From Tidjanibacter sp. (GTDB lineage: Bacteria > Bacteroidota > Bacteroidia > Bacteroidales > Rikenellaceae): a stretch of 45,443 nt of DNA. The stretch covers positions 1-45,443 of the forward strand of contig JAFXAY010000082.1 in assembly GCA_017521965.1 (NCBI GenBank). The letters run 5' to 3'. Made by a program: the position numbers and the translations under genes. Numbering within the stretch: position 1 is the first letter of the stretch; each line of letters starts with the position of its first letter. Below are positions 36,585 through 42,165 of this stretch, piece after piece. The notes beneath the pieces are model-generated. The model did not search any database and was not told where the DNA came from. It saw only the letters and a program-made list of their open reading frames with translations.

Positions 36585-37853
36585 ATGAAAAAACTTATTT
36601 TCCCGCTCATTTGTGCATTGGCACTTTTCGCTTGCAGCCCCGACAAGACCGATGACACGCCCAAGGCAAATCTATCCATAGAGAATCTTCCCGACGACAA
36701 CCCTTTAATATATGCCTCGGGAGGTGAAGCGGTGGTTAAAATTGAGTGCGATAGCGAGTGGCAGGTCGATATAGTGGAGTCAGATGCATCTCAGTGGCTT
36801 ACCATAACCCCTAAAATATCAACCGACCATAATGGCTCAGTCACCATCAAAACCGCACCCAACACCACCAATAGTGACCGCACTGCCACAATCAAAATCA
36901 CCGCAGGCGACAAAGAGAAAGAGTTGAAAATAAAGCAATTACAAAATCCCTTCACTCGTAGAGAGGTTAACTCCCGCGATGCCTACACCTCACTGACAAT
37001 CCACTACAACGGTTCTGTCAGCAACGTAACAAAACTCATCACCCTGCTGCCCGTACCCGAGAGCAACATCTATCAAGATATCACCAAATGGAAAGCCATA
37101 AAGGGCAACATCGGTACTGCCAACGACAACCAAACACGCTACATAGGCAGTGTGTTCACCACATCTACAATTCCCCCATCGGGTTCTGATGTGCTACGCC
37201 AAGAGTATCATATCACAAACTATGCTGTCAGCACCAACTTCGATGCCATCACCACCATCATAAAACCGGACACCGACTCAGATATATATAAAGAGTATGT
37301 GCTGAAAGATGATCAAATCAACGACCGCAACAACGCCACCATAAAAGCCAATGCCGACCGTATGTGGAATGAGAGCGGCAAGAACATCATCGATTACGCC
37401 CGCGCCTGCTATCTGTGGGTGGCCAACACCTTGAAGTACCTCAATCCCAATACCGGTCTACACCCCGTAGCGGAGATTTTGGCCAATGGCGGTGGCGACT
37501 GCGGCAATCAAGCGACCGTATTTATCAGCCTGTTGCGCAATAAAGAGATTCCGGCCCGTCACGTAGTTTTGGTGCGCACAGATGGCTCTTTCCACGTGCG
37601 AGCCGAATTTTATATGGCCGGTTATGGTTGGATACCTGTCGATGTTAATGCAAAGAATATGATACCTTCGGGCGACTTTTTCGGTCGAAACGAAGACTCA
37701 GCCGAGGTAGTAATGAATAGAAATTTGACATATCAAATCAATATCGACAACCAAAAGTTACCACTCGTGATGTTGCAAAATTACGCTTGGTGGTATTGGA
37801 TAAGTAGTGGCCAAACCTCCTTCTCCCTCTCCTACGAAACAAGAGAGAAGTAA
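36585..37853 (+). CDS. BACON-domain transglutaminase-like lipoprotein
   Basis: The 422-aa protein has a lipoprotein signal (LFAC, Cys17) and an acidic spacer (SPDKTDDTPK). Residues about 30-118 look like a BACON domain (SEWQVDIVESDASQWLTITP, then DRTATIKITAGDKEKELKIK). The second half is a transglutaminase-core domain with a complete Cys-His-Asp triad: GGDCGNQA (Cys306), SFHVRAEF (His337) and PVDVNAK (Asp353). BACON domains are usually ligand- or mucin-binding modules on Bacteroidota surface enzymes. Such transglutaminase-like proteins often act as peptidases or amidases and not as crosslinkers. Transcribed alone; surface exposure is likely but not shown. Confidence 0.9.
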   Translation: MKKLIFPLICALALFACSPDKTDDTPKANLSIENLPDDNPLIYASGGEAVVKIECDSEWQVDIVESDASQWLTITPKISTDHNGSVTIKTAPNTTNSDRTATIKITAGDKEKELKIKQLQNPFTRREVNSRDAYTSLTIHYNGSVSNVTKLITLLPVPESNIYQDITKWKAIKGNIGTANDNQTRYIGSVFTTSTIPPSGSDVLRQEYHITNYAVSTNFDAITTIIKPDTDSDIYKEYVLKDDQINDRNNATIKANADRMWNESGKNIIDYARACYLWVANTLKYLNPNTGLHPVAEILANGGGDCGNQATVFISLLRNKEIPARHVVLVRTDGSFHVRAEFYMAGYGWIPVDVNAKNMIPSGDFFGRNEDSAEVVMNRNLTYQINIDNQKLPLVMLQNYAWWYWISSGQTSFSLSYETREK

Positions 37854-38687: not shown

Positions 38688-39731
38688 ATGGAAAAACGTA
38701 CCGAAATCTCCACTCTCGGCGAATTTGGGCTGATAGATAAGTTGTTCAGCGGGGCAACCAAACACAATAAGACCACCCTCTGCGGTGCCGGCGACGATGC
38801 TGCGGTGCTCGCTTCGGGACAGAAGGCGATGCTACTATCGACCGACCTACTGTTGGAGGGCATCAACTTCGACCTCACCTACTTCCCGCTCAAACACCTC
38901 GGCTACAAGGCTGTGGTGGTGGCGTGTAGCGACATCTTGGCGATGAACGCCCTACCATCGGCAATCACCGTATCGGTCGGCGTATCCTCCAAATTTGGCG
39001 TTGAGCAGTTGGAGGAACTCTATGCGGGTATTCACGCTGCGTGTGACGAGCACTCCATCGACCTTGTGGGTGGCGACACCTCTGCCTCGGTAAATGGTCT
39101 TACCATTTCGATGACCGCTGTGGGCTATGCAGAGCGCAAGAAGATAGCCTACCGCAGTGGTGCCAAGCCCACCGACCTCATCTGCCTCACAGGCGACCTC
39201 GGAGCCGCCTATATGGGCCTGCACCTGTTGGAGAGGGAGAAACGCGCCTTGGAGGGCTCGCCCAATCCCGAGCCACAATTCAAGGGCTACGAGTATCTGC
39301 TGCGCCGACAGCTCAAACCCGACCTGCGTACCGACGTTGTCAAGGCTCTTGCTGACGATGGCATCGTACCGACATCGATGATTGACCTGAGCGATGGTCT
39401 GGCCTCGGACGTATTGCAGTTGTGCAAGGCTTCGGGGTGTGGTGCACACATCTACTTGGAGCGCATTCCAATCGCTCGCGAAGTACACTCCTTTGCCGAA
39501 GAACTCAATAGCGACCCCGTGGTGGCAGCCCTCAATGGTGGCGACGACCACGAACTGCTCTTCACCGTTCCGGTCGATATGTATGAGCGGGTAGTGAAGA
39601 TTGGCGGCATCGATGTTATCGGCCACATCACCGAGCGCGAGAAGGGCGCACTGCTCGTCACCCCCGACGGTAGCGGCATCCGCCTGCGCAGCCAAGCCTT
39701 CCCCGAAGGAACAGAGTCGTTCACAAAATAG
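38688..39731 (+). CDS. thiL: Thiamine-phosphate kinase
   Basis: ThiL phosphorylates thiamine monophosphate to the active diphosphate. The 347-aa protein has STLGEFGLIDKLF, GAGDDAAV, LLSTDLLLEGINFD, DILAMNALPSAITVSVG, DLVGGDTSAS and the late SMIDLSDGLASD, matching the AIR-synthase-like fold of ThiL. No thiamine biosynthesis genes or TPP riboswitch are adjacent; the predicted 28-base leader is too short for one. Confidence 0.95.
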   Translation: MEKRTEISTLGEFGLIDKLFSGATKHNKTTLCGAGDDAAVLASGQKAMLLSTDLLLEGINFDLTYFPLKHLGYKAVVVACSDILAMNALPSAITVSVGVSSKFGVEQLEELYAGIHAACDEHSIDLVGGDTSASVNGLTISMTAVGYAERKKIAYRSGAKPTDLICLTGDLGAAYMGLHLLEREKRALEGSPNPEPQFKGYEYLLRRQLKPDLRTDVVKALADDGIVPTSMIDLSDGLASDVLQLCKASGCGAHIYLERIPIAREVHSFAEELNSDPVVAALNGGDDHELLFTVPVDMYERVVKIGGIDVIGHITEREKGALLVTPDGSGIRLRSQAFPEGTESFTK

Positions 39732-39740
39732 CGCAACACC

Positions 39741-39785
39741 ATAATAAAAAAGGTCTGCCCTCTCGGAGCAGACCTTTTTTATTAT
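39741..39785. terminator. Bidirectional terminator, 18-bp stem
   Basis: 39741-39758 pairs exactly with 39768-39785 around a 9-base loop. A/T arms give a U-tract on both strands. Between the convergent thiL and the anti-sigma gene. Confidence 0.92.
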
Positions 39786-39795
39786 ATTGTCAGGC

Positions 39796-41076
39796 TTAGA
39801 TACCTCCGTCCAATATCCAACCGCCACTTGGAGTATCATTGCGCATAGCAACCATCAACTCCTCGCTCTTGCCATTGCGATACTTCACCTTCATCGGCAC
39901 AAAATAGCCTACATAGAGTCCTGAGCGCACAGCCTCTTTAACCTCCAAAATCTCTACACCTTGATAGTCATCGCGCAAACGCTCTATATCTACAAAAGGT
40001 ATCGCCTCGGCGAGTAACTCTTTATCCCACACCTTCATCGCCTCAAAGGTCTTAATTGCTGCCTGTCGAGCAGAGATGCCGACAAACGAGGAGCCGGAGT
40101 CAGCCTTTAATGGCTCGACAAATTCAATACTTTCGGGCAGATGGCTAATATCGTCTGCAACCATCGGGGCATTGTAGATAATCTGGTCGAGTGTGAGGAC
40201 CTTCACCTGCTGCTCACCTTGCAACATATAGATACTCGCCGCCAACAACTCTTTTGTACGTCGGTCAAATGCATACTCCCTGCGCGAATCCGATTCGAGG
40301 ATAGAACTCATATACATATAGTTACTCTCCACCCAATCGCCCAAAGCAGGCGAAGTGACCGTCACAAAATAGCACCCACCATCGGTTCGGGTTTCATATA
40401 CAACTCCACTAAATTCATCAGCCAAACGCTGCTCAAATTGGAGCAACAGATGGGGATTAACCATCAGCGACACCAGTTCCGAGGGAGAGCCATAACCCTT
40501 CCAACCATTATTCCAACTCTCTACCCATTGCCACCACTGGCCACCATCACTATAAGCAACACGGTCGCCTTTATCGACACGCCAAGCCTCGCCAACTCGC
40601 TGAATGGTGTGCTCAACAAACTCCGCACTCGGGTCGGTATAATCAAAATTCTCTGCGGGTAGAGTGCGCATACTCAGTCGCATAAAGAGTGATTGTGCCT
40701 GACCGAGTTTGGTAGCCGCTCGCTCAAAGTAACCGCTTGCTGCTTTTGCAGGAGTGGCAGGTAGGATATTCACCACCACCAAGAACATAGCAGCAATAGA
40801 GGCCACAGCTCCACCTATTCGGAAGAGCACTCGACGCACAGGCTGACGCTTAGGCTCGGCAGCAGCAATAGCCTTGTCGAGTCGTGCGGAAAACTCCGCA
40901 GAAGGAGTAATCTCCTGCTTGGGAGTCAGCGCCTTGATAGCATTGGAAAACTCCTCATAGAGTGCCTTGCAATCGTCGCAACTCTCAATATGTTCAAGCA
41001 TCTCACGCTTGATCTCCGCCGACAGTTCCTCATCGAAGAGGTCGGCAATGTTCAGTTTAAAATTCTCGCAATTCAT
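39796..41076 (-). CDS. Anti-sigma factor with large LolA/RseB-like periplasmic part
   Basis: The 426-aa protein starts with a zf-HC2-type anti-sigma zinc-binding helix (His29, Cys33, Cys36 in HIESCDDC; Cys3 may join). One TM helix follows at about 86-105, so the rest is periplasmic. Residues about 110-330 look like a LolA/RseB-type half-barrel (EAWRVDKGDRVAYSDGGQWW, YAFDRRTKELLAASIYM, VKVLTLDQIIYNAP). The last 90 residues form another small domain ending GGWILDGGI. In E. coli the anti-sigma RseA and its periplasmic partner RseB are separate proteins; here both roles may be fused. It starts 7 bases after the ECF sigma gene ends. Domain assignment beyond the zinc motif and TM is by eye. Confidence 0.82.
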   Translation of the reverse strand: MNCENFKLNIADLFDEELSAEIKREMLEHIESCDDCKALYEEFSNAIKALTPKQEITPSAEFSARLDKAIAAAEPKRQPVRRVLFRIGGAVASIAAMFLVVVNILPATPAKAASGYFERAATKLGQAQSLFMRLSMRTLPAENFDYTDPSAEFVEHTIQRVGEAWRVDKGDRVAYSDGGQWWQWVESWNNGWKGYGSPSELVSLMVNPHLLLQFEQRLADEFSGVVYETRTDGGCYFVTVTSPALGDWVESNYMYMSSILESDSRREYAFDRRTKELLAASIYMLQGEQQVKVLTLDQIIYNAPMVADDISHLPESIEFVEPLKADSGSSFVGISARQAAIKTFEAMKVWDKELLAEAIPFVDIERLRDDYQGVEILEVKEAVRSGLYVGYFVPMKVKYRNGKSEELMVAMRNDTPSGGWILDGGI

Positions 41077-41083
41077 AAATTCA

Positions 41084-41569
41084 TCACTTTTTGTCGTTTA
41101 ACATTTTTCTTACTTTGTCGATACCATAGGTAAATCTCGACTTGGCTGTGGAGATAGGCACATCAAGCACCTCGGCAATCTCGGCGAACGATAAATGTTG
41201 TGCAGTTCGCATCATAATCACCTCCGACTGCTCGGCGGGCAACTCACGGAGCAGCCTCTTGATACGTTCAACCTCTACTTCTGCCTCGTTCTCCTCGGCA
41301 ACATCGAACTTATCGCTCAATGGTACAACAGATAGGCTCCTTCGACGCTGGCGGTCGATGCAGAGATTACGCAAACTTCTTATCAAGAAACTACGCGGAG
41401 AGGCCACAGCAGAGATGTCGCTACTCGACGAGGCAAGCCTCACAAAGAGGTCCTGCACAGCATCTTCGGCATCGGCAGCAGAGCCAAGAGAAAACCTCGC
41501 AAACCTGTATAGGTCAGCTTGGTAAGCCTCAGCCCATCGGCCAATAATTTTGTTTCTTTCGGGTTTCAT
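41084..41569 (-). CDS. ECF-type RNA polymerase sigma factor
   Basis: The 161-aa protein has sigma region 2 (YRFARFSLGSAADAEDAVQD, then SPRSFLIRSLRNLCIDRQRR) and region 4 (LPAEQSEVIMMRTAQHLSF, then HTH AEVLDVPISTAKSR). The frame is open to 41611, but MKPERNKIIGRW at 41569 fits the family better. The downstream membrane anti-sigma gene is coupled by a 7-base gap. Two palindrome-like elements (41596-41605, 41632-41649) precede it and might be operators. Confidence 0.92.
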   Translation of the reverse strand: MKPERNKIIGRWAEAYQADLYRFARFSLGSAADAEDAVQDLFVRLASSSSDISAVASPRSFLIRSLRNLCIDRQRRRSLSVVPLSDKFDVAEENEAEVEVERIKRLLRELPAEQSEVIMMRTAQHLSFAEIAEVLDVPISTAKSRFTYGIDKVRKMLNDKK

Positions 41570-41667
41570 AATTTGTGAATAATTGTTCTGTTTCAAACAC
41601 GTGTTCACCAATTAAGACGACAAAAAGTGGCTTTGGACTTAAAGTCAAACGGAAATATGGAAAATAG

Positions 41668-42165
41668 TTACAGAATTTTCAGCGCAATGGCGGCGCAAGC
41701 CTCAGCATCGGCAAGGGCGTGGTGGTGGTCGGCAAGGTGATAGCCACACGCAGCAGCCGAGGTGTGAAGTTGATGGTTGGGCAGTTGTTTACCAAAGGCT
41801 CGGCGCGACGCAGCGAGGGTATCGAAGAAGGTGTACTCCTTGTGCGGCATACCGTAACTTGCCCTCACCGCACTCAGACAGCCACTATCGAAGCCTGCAT
41901 TGTGTGCCACAAGGGGCAACTCCTCAATCAGCGGCTCGATTTTGGCCCACACCTCGGGGAAGGTGGGGGCAGAGCAGGTATCGCAGTCGGTCAGACCGTG
42001 CACATTGGTGCAAAACCAGCTATAATAATTAGGTGTGGGGTGTATGAGGCTGTAAAACTTATCTACCACTACCCCATCGCGCACCACAACAACACCAACC
42101 GAGCATACACTCGACCGATTACCATTTGCAGTCTCAAAATCTATTGCAGCAAAATCTCTTAACAT
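41668..42165 (-). CDS. DnaQ-family 3'-5' exonuclease (DEDDh)
   Basis: The 165-aa protein consists of one exonuclease domain. ExoI: IDFETAN (Asp9, Glu11); ExoII: LVAHNAGFD; ExoIII: HHALADAEA with the histidine of the DEDDh class. Such stand-alone domains resemble the proofreading subunit of DNA polymerase III, but many act in RNA or DNA turnover; the exact role is open. It lies 51 bases after tsaC on the same strand and probably shares its transcript. Confidence 0.92.
   Translation of the reverse strand: MLRDFAAIDFETANGNRSSVCSVGVVVVRDGVVVDKFYSLIHPTPNYYSWFCTNVHGLTDCDTCSAPTFPEVWAKIEPLIEELPLVAHNAGFDSGCLSAVRASYGMPHKEYTFFDTLAASRRAFGKQLPNHQLHTSAAACGYHLADHHHALADAEACAAIALKIL

Follow-up and report, generated by a model that had tools for sequence, protein, structure and literature searches.

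Fusion of LolA-like and NTF2-like domains to a predicted membrane anti-sigma factor in an ECF sigma operon of Tidjanibacter sp.

The window, i.e., the whole 45,443-nucleotide stretch of a Tidjanibacter sp. contig that was analysed, carries a gene for an ECF sigma factor followed, 7 bp after its stop codon and on the same minus strand, by the reading frame of a predicted membrane anti-sigma factor (Table 1). Since all 40 distinct homologous loci keep an ECF sigma gene directly upstream in the same orientation, the pairing of the two genes is not due to chance. A longer sigma reading frame could begin at a TTG codon at 41611, but it would cross the palindrome described below, and the ATG was therefore taken as the start. 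The neighbouring genes are of other kinds than the sigma/anti-sigma pair; a Pfam scan identifies a converging AIR-synthase-type gene and, upstream, an exonuclease gene and a Sua5/YrdC gene. Elsewhere in the window (36585-37853, plus strand), a protein with BACON and transglutaminase-like domains is encoded. A 13-mer, CACTTTTTGTCGT, is present at the sigma promoter (41617-41629), and an inverted copy of it lies at the 3' end of the sigma gene (41085-41097).

Table 1 Positions of the genes, predicted domains and control elements of the sigma/anti-sigma pair in the window.
Feature	Position	Strand	Basis
ECF sigma factor, 161 aa (ATG at 41569)	41084..41569	-	Pfam Sigma70_r2 E 9.9e-14, Sigma70_r4_2 E 5.2e-12
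Membrane anti-sigma factor (predicted), 426 aa, fused to LolA-like and NTF2-like domains	39796..41076	-	ORF, Pfam, profile, model
Zinc head, residues 1-36 (Cys3, His29, Cys33, Cys36; zf-HC2)	40969..41076	-	Pfam and residue reading
Residues 46-74 (AIKALTPKQEITPSAEFSARL...), proposed helix 4 of the anti-sigma domain	40855..40941	-	Weak RsiW match (5wuq_C, E 0.043); kept in truncated homologues
Single transmembrane helix, residues 87-105	40762..40818	-	Hydropathy maximum
LolA-like domain, residues ~110-311, predicted periplasmic	40144..40749	-	hhalign to Bacteroidales LolA, E 1.7e-6, with controls
NTF2-like C-terminal domain (predicted), residues ~332-426, ending in MRNDTPSGGWILDGGI	39799..40083	-	AF2 pLDDT 83.3, pTM 0.78; VIA-align Z up to 9.0
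Predicted autoregulatory promoter: -35-like AAGTC (41636-41640), 16 nt spacer, -10-like CGTCTTA (41613-41619)	41613..41640	-	Relaxed pattern match, relatives
Palindrome AACACGTGTT about the predicted transcription start; centre varies in relatives	41596..41605		Dyad in 21 of 31 regions

The nearest named relative, at 75% identity, is a Tidjanibacter MAG that, according to its title, comes from yak caecum. With the window's own genome included throughout, matches were obtained in 6 of 23 genomes of the genus, in 28 of 200 genomes and 2 of 19 genera of the family (completeness at least 80; the second genus is g36, presumably Alistipes), and in 14 of 294 genomes, 11 of 179 genera and 10 families of the order Bacteroidales (completeness at least 85). 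In the phylum sample, which was searched with a 32-row query set, the own genome was the sole match among 392. The set of 40 homologous loci excludes L005, L010 and L011 (the same places as L009, L003 and L004), L034 (the same ORF as L030), L008 (the same match as L002) and the repeats L056 and L057. L033 is counted in the spacing and adjacency tally of this set and is absent from the profile and the tree, from which L069, a near-copy of L068, was also left out. The 35 upstream regions exclude L012, L017, L025, L031 and L033, and the sigma alignment excludes L015, L021, L025, L033, L065 and L069.

A cytoplasmic head, a single transmembrane helix and an outer part of ~320 residues, predicted to be periplasmic, follow one another within the one reading frame of the partner protein. 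The zinc-binding model PF13490 (zf-HC2) matches residues 3-36 above the Pfam cut-off (E 5.3e-5, 23.7 bits, cut-off 22.2). The initial annotation, made from the DNA letters, had named His29, Cys33 and Cys36 as zinc residues within a fused one-protein design with one transmembrane helix, a periplasmic part of more than 300 residues and a further C-terminal domain, encoded next to an ECF sigma gene. The adjacent reading frames with their two sigma-70 domain matches, the single hydropathy maximum and the NTF2-like model presented below bear out this description, to which Cys3 is added as the likely fourth zinc ligand. Two features of class I (zinc-type) anti-sigma factors, an Hx3Cx2C/zf-HC2 head and a gene beside that of an ECF sigma factor, were found, the latter at all 40 loci. 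In known complexes, helices 1-3 of the anti-sigma domain bind sigma4 and helix 4 binds sigma2, as described in PMC7406223. Searches of the PDB with the head returned RsiW, by sequence at E 0.25 and, again weakly, by profile (5wuq_C, E 0.043, RsiW 27-77 aligned).

The complete zinc motif of the window protein raises the question of a zinc or redox switch, in which oxidation of the Cys3-His29-Cys33-Cys36 site would free the sigma factor in the cytoplasm, leaving the outer part the role of an anchor or of a second input. In keeping with such a switch, the protein weakly resembles the RsrA model, below its cut-off (E 0.0011, 19.1 bits against 62.5), and ChrR is described as requiring zinc to inhibit, whereas RsiW is described as binding its sigma factor independently of zinc (PMC7406223). 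However, the Hx3Cx2C motif is present in 25 and missing in 15 of the 40 homologues (24 versus 15 of 39 loci, plus L033), while the outer part stays conserved. Because these 15 homologues do without it, the design does not depend on the zinc motif, and we regard a zinc or redox switch as very unlikely.

The loss of the motif is mostly part of a larger deletion. In 14 of the 15 motif-less homologues, the region of helices 1-3 is also gone and the presumed sigma2-binding helix segment is kept; this segment, L(T)P...PSxxLxxRIL, can be aligned, though weakly, with the terminal stretch of the RsiW domain. The truncated proteins comprise a clade of 11 (nine from g36, two from the window's own genus), L032 and L065/L066. 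Between the sigma stop codon and the outer domain, they have 78-88 residues (clade of 11), 77 (L032) and 63-68 (L065/L066), as compared with 98-119 in the zinc-bearing rows (183 in L030). L062 has kept the full length (112 residues) and lost the zinc ligands. A tree built from 38 rows of the outer part requires four changes of the zinc label, at least three of which are forced by well-supported branches; the head has been lost repeatedly. The sigma4 end of the cognate sigma factors carries an SRFxYG motif, in which Ser stands for Tyr in 10 of 10 aligned sigmas of the clade of 11, while Tyr is kept in 20 of 21 zinc-group sigmas, the exception (L027) coming from the sister zinc clade. Among the other motif-less rows, this position is Ser in L066, Tyr in L032 and L062, and Ala in L065. 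The exchange of Tyr for Ser fits a relaxed sigma4 interface, although as a sequence pattern it is only suggestive.

The C-terminal domain was modelled by itself with AF2, using the window and L008 sequences. Two of the five models exceeded 80 pLDDT (the best is given in Table 1), and the other three reached 60, 43 and 41. VIA-align relates the model to 3f40 (Z 8.4, 2.0 A over 82 residues), to the N-terminal region of PBP5 (Z 8.5) and to RsgI9 (7sjy, Z 8.1), values to be read with the caveat that Z 7-8 is common for unmatched models. We accept an NTF2-like assignment because one superfamily recurs among these matches: NTF2 appears in the title of 8 of the 50 rows listed, and the PBP5, CaMKII-hub and ketosteroid-isomerase rows share the NTF2 fold. 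A Foldseek search with this domain returned nothing below E 0.001 (best E 0.036). The C-terminal domain is, as modelled, an NTF2-like alpha+beta fold. Its closing motif, AxRND...WxxDGG, does not vary among 27 members and hardly varies among 32. DUF4878 as a candidate parent of the domain gained no support in a weak test, with Prob 0.2 against three ORFs at PF12870 hits (that of L072 lying in the wrong frame) and no PF12870 match in the 27 members.

For the middle domain, hhalign comparison of the 38-sequence family profile with nine Bacteroidales LolAs gives a match of Prob 89.9 and score 51.3, which is collinear over 178 columns and spans the whole domain. In 150 column shuffles of the LolA alignment, the highest score was 20.0 (mean 14.0, sd 2.3); the reversed LolA control abolished the match (score 13.7), and the sigma alignment, used as a natural decoy, scored 15.3. 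The C-terminal domain alone scores 13.9 against LolA, so the match stems from the middle domain. Upon removal of the two LolAs of the own genus, it is still obtained (Prob 65, E 5.9e-5). With the first, 27-sequence profile, the same nine LolAs gave Prob 18 (E 0.0013, 185 columns), and the match became clear because eleven more divergent order-level rows were added. The LolA-type sequences were taken from PF03888 and PF03548 searches in relatives; the own-genus LolAs, L039 and L041 (FtsK-linked), matched PF03888 only below the cut-off, and PF03548 had no match in the 13 genus genomes searched.

These controls also bear on the possibility that the middle domain adopts another beta-rich periplasmic fold and resembles LolA in profile only, which we consider quite unlikely. 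Modelling gives some room for it, as AF2 on the whole 319-residue outer part (two sequences) reached pLDDT 35.8 and no usable model, so that it is the profile comparison that carries the LolA fold. Neither Pfam LolA (PF03548) nor MucB_RseB (PF03888) matched any of the 27 members, NCBIfam and Pfam returned nothing credible for the outer part (the best stray hit was T9SS_PorE, in one member, E 0.0031), and sequence and profile searches of the PDB with it gave chance-level matches. Among the LolA-type sets tried, only the nine Bacteroidales LolAs matched: four Bacteroidales MucB_RseB-type proteins gave Prob 5.7 over a short stretch, a four-sequence variant LolA set gave no match (Prob 0.8), and the single E. 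coli LolA sequence did not match the family profile in hhalign. The single E. coli RseB sequence did not match either, a comparison for which the yardstick is itself only Prob 35 (Bacteroidales LolA versus E. coli RseB by the same method; Prob 96 versus E. coli LolA). A collinear alignment over 178 columns, scoring well above the shuffled, reversed and unrelated controls, nevertheless speaks against a resemblance in profile only. The comparison supports a LolA-like middle domain, which would probably fold as a half-barrel. With respect to the LolA/RseB-like character proposed in the initial annotation, these comparisons support the LolA component and show, with the sequences compared, no tie specific to RseB.

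Of 35 regions that precede the sigma gene in homologues, 31 fit a common rule, with a -35-like [AC][AG]TC, mostly a T-run, then a spacer (16 nt in 23 regions, 17 nt in 8) and a -10-like GTC element; two of the four non-fitting regions carry CGTCCTA by eye. The promoter is conserved across the homologous operons, and it would be the one used by the window sigma factor, whose own -35 is without the T-run found in most relatives. Counted from the first base of the -10 element, the centre of the dyad falls 17-20 nt further on, near the expected +1 position. A perfect palindrome of at least four pairs is present in 21 of the 31 regions and lacking in 10. Nine different 4-nt centres are found (ACGT, TCGA, AGCT, GGCC, GCGC, CGCG, CATG, TGCA and GATC), along with odd-centred forms; symmetry is kept while the bases change, which argues for a structural or dimer-bound element. 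The mean best dyad has 4.2 of 5 pairs versus 2.72 in shuffles (sd 0.13, max 3.3, 2000 shuffles; 30 distinct regions), a comparison that gives no probability because the rows are related. A scan of 39600-41800 returned six sigma-70-type promoter-like sites versus 1.7 in shuffles, one of which (41568-41596, minus strand) overlaps the palindrome, and three terminator-like sites versus 2.1.

Because the upstream scan took the best site per region, searching genomes provides a cleaner test. The strict pattern GTCTTTTN{11,13}CGTCWTA has 19 sites in 18 of 40 genomes, versus 6 for the reversed control; 16 of these sites, in as many genomes, are those of the sigma operon of the family itself, and the other three fall within long ORFs. 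It was not found in the remaining 22 genomes, among them the window's own, in which a relaxed pattern has two sites, one being the window operon (reversed control 4). Allowing two mismatches yields 20 sites in 12 genomes, 11 of them at own operons, but the reversed control yields 17; the number of such sites is therefore meaningless, and only their positions count. Seven of them, in six genomes, are upstream of a sister ECF sigma gene. The site at L104 is upstream of a gene for a ManC-type nucleotidyltransferase (PF00483, E 4.2e-38), and that at L108 is without a clear target. The pattern searches of the 40 genomes established no regulon beyond the sigma operons.

The sister sites (L105, L106, L107 and L109-L112) have nearly the same promoter and a start-site palindrome, near base 1501 of each, and the combination of promoter and near-+1 dyad marks most family operons and sister operons. 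The sister partners that were read (L105, L106, L107, L111 and L112) consist of a short cytoplasmic LLTPRF stub, a transmembrane helix and an outer part. In L105, L106, L111 and L112, the outer part matches the window-family profile (Prob 86-96), is without the NTF2-like domain, and reaches Prob 0.7-5 against LolA itself. In L107, it is a TonB_C domain (E 3.6e-17). As far as these sequences indicate, the sensor end appears to be exchangeable among the sister operons.

FecR-type proteins act as pro-sigma regulators, and the partner could be a dual regulator of this kind, whose freed cytoplasmic stub is needed to activate the sigma factor and does not only inhibit it; the signal would perhaps come from an outer-membrane protein. 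Such a mechanism would best suit the truncated homologues, in which (14 of 40) only a short cytoplasmic segment is left, and the same kind of stub is joined to TonB_C in L107. At L065 (2490-3953), a gene for an outer-membrane beta-barrel protein, with a CarboxypepD_reg-like start and a PF14905 match above the cut-off (E 2e-7), follows 32 bp after the stop codon of the truncated anti-sigma gene, which slightly raises a FecR-like role and slightly lowers our preferred reading, a membrane-held inhibitor. In L066 (2484-3908), a sister of L065, a similar barrel-type gene, judged by position and resemblance only, occupies the same place. However, the window protein has an inhibitor-type zf-HC2 head, Pfam gave no FecR family match for it or for the outer part of any of 27 members, and at the loci checked (the window, L003-L006 and L008) no barrel gene accompanies the pair. 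On balance, we consider a FecR-like dual regulator unlikely.

We think it probable that the locus is a two-gene autoregulated envelope module, consisting of an ECF sigma factor and a membrane anti-sigma factor with a fused LolA-like sensor, probably with proteolytic release. As a plausible mechanism, the sigma factor would be held at the inner membrane by the single-pass class I anti-sigma factor, and the input would come through the outer part, in which an NTF2-like domain would follow a LolA-like half-barrel. A hydrophobic ligand (e.g., acyl chains of mislocalised lipoproteins, or lipid A) or an interdomain change would make the juxtamembrane stretch accessible to a site-1 protease. An M50 site-2 protease would next cut within the membrane and free the sigma factor, which would transcribe its own operon from the GTC(TTTTT)...CGTCWTA promoter. 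In the 14 truncated homologues, the sigma4-binding bundle region is gone, and inhibition should therefore rest on the helix-4-like, sigma2-binding segment. The initial annotation had suggested searching the genome for site-2 protease homologues, and an M50 homologue is indeed found; it carries little weight because all 14 control genomes have M50 matches too. Lipid sensing by the LolA-like domain is borrowed from a distant analogue, MucB, and may or may not extend to this protein: the N-domain of MucB, likened to LolA and LolB, is described as binding lipid A, and RseB as covering the anti-sigma stretch that is cut by DegS (PMC7400510).

The module resembles E. coli RpoE-RseA-RseB and P. aeruginosa AlgU-MucA-MucB in having an ECF sigma factor, a single-pass anti-sigma factor and a LolA-like periplasmic component followed by a second domain. 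In those systems, however, the periplasmic component is a separate protein, whereas the window sensor is fused to the anti-sigma factor, its C-terminal domain is NTF2-like in the model, and the E. coli RseB sequence is unmatched. The membrane anti-sigma factor RsgI9 of Clostridium thermocellum likewise has an NTF2-like domain, but its neighbouring outer domain is S1C peptidase-like rather than LolA-like, and its partner is a sigma factor of a different class, SigI. RsgI release is described as involving autocleavage, RseP and ClpXP (PMC12203970). Bacillus RsiW and other zinc-type class I anti-sigma factors share the Hx3Cx2C head, and RsiW also the weak domain match that includes the RsiW domain end; in contrast, the window family has a large two-domain outer part, and its relatives have repeatedly lost the head. 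RseA, unlike the window protein, is described in PMC7406223 as not reliant on a zinc motif. The Bacteroidales LolAs (FtsK-linked in L039 and L041) match over the whole domain in profile, yet they are separate proteins at their own loci, without an anti-sigma head or NTF2-like domain. We assign the protein to the class I anti-sigma factors, as one with a new architecture, and not to RseB. In the titles and abstract openings listed, a scope that leaves subscription papers mostly outside and a prior mention possible, we found no LolA-fused or helix-4-only anti-sigma factor.

More speculatively, and as a doubtful though possible generalisation, the family and its sisters may represent a class of Bacteroidales envelope sensors, each made of a single protein, whose shared sigma-binding stub and transmembrane helix are combined with exchangeable outer heads (LolA-like, LolA-like plus NTF2-like, or TonB_C). 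Several lineages would have shed helices 1-3, giving minimal anti-sigma factors that act via the sigma2-binding helix alone, and each operon would read its own promoter, with a start-site dyad whose centre changes while its symmetry is kept.

To our knowledge, envelope-damage sensing in Bacteroidota is poorly known. Class I anti-sigma domains are described as lying near only 6% of Bacteroidetes ECFs (PMC7406223). If the proposed module is correct, the anti-sigma factor itself would bear a fold akin to the part of RseB that senses lipids, and ligand binding and sigma release would become testable within one protein. The repeated loss of helices 1-3 provides naturally occurring deletions against which the dual-interface model of how anti-sigma factors act can be examined. 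This switch of a gut bacterium may thus be viewed as a natural experiment in how anti-sigma factors work, one in which relatives have shortened the inner, holding part on several occasions.
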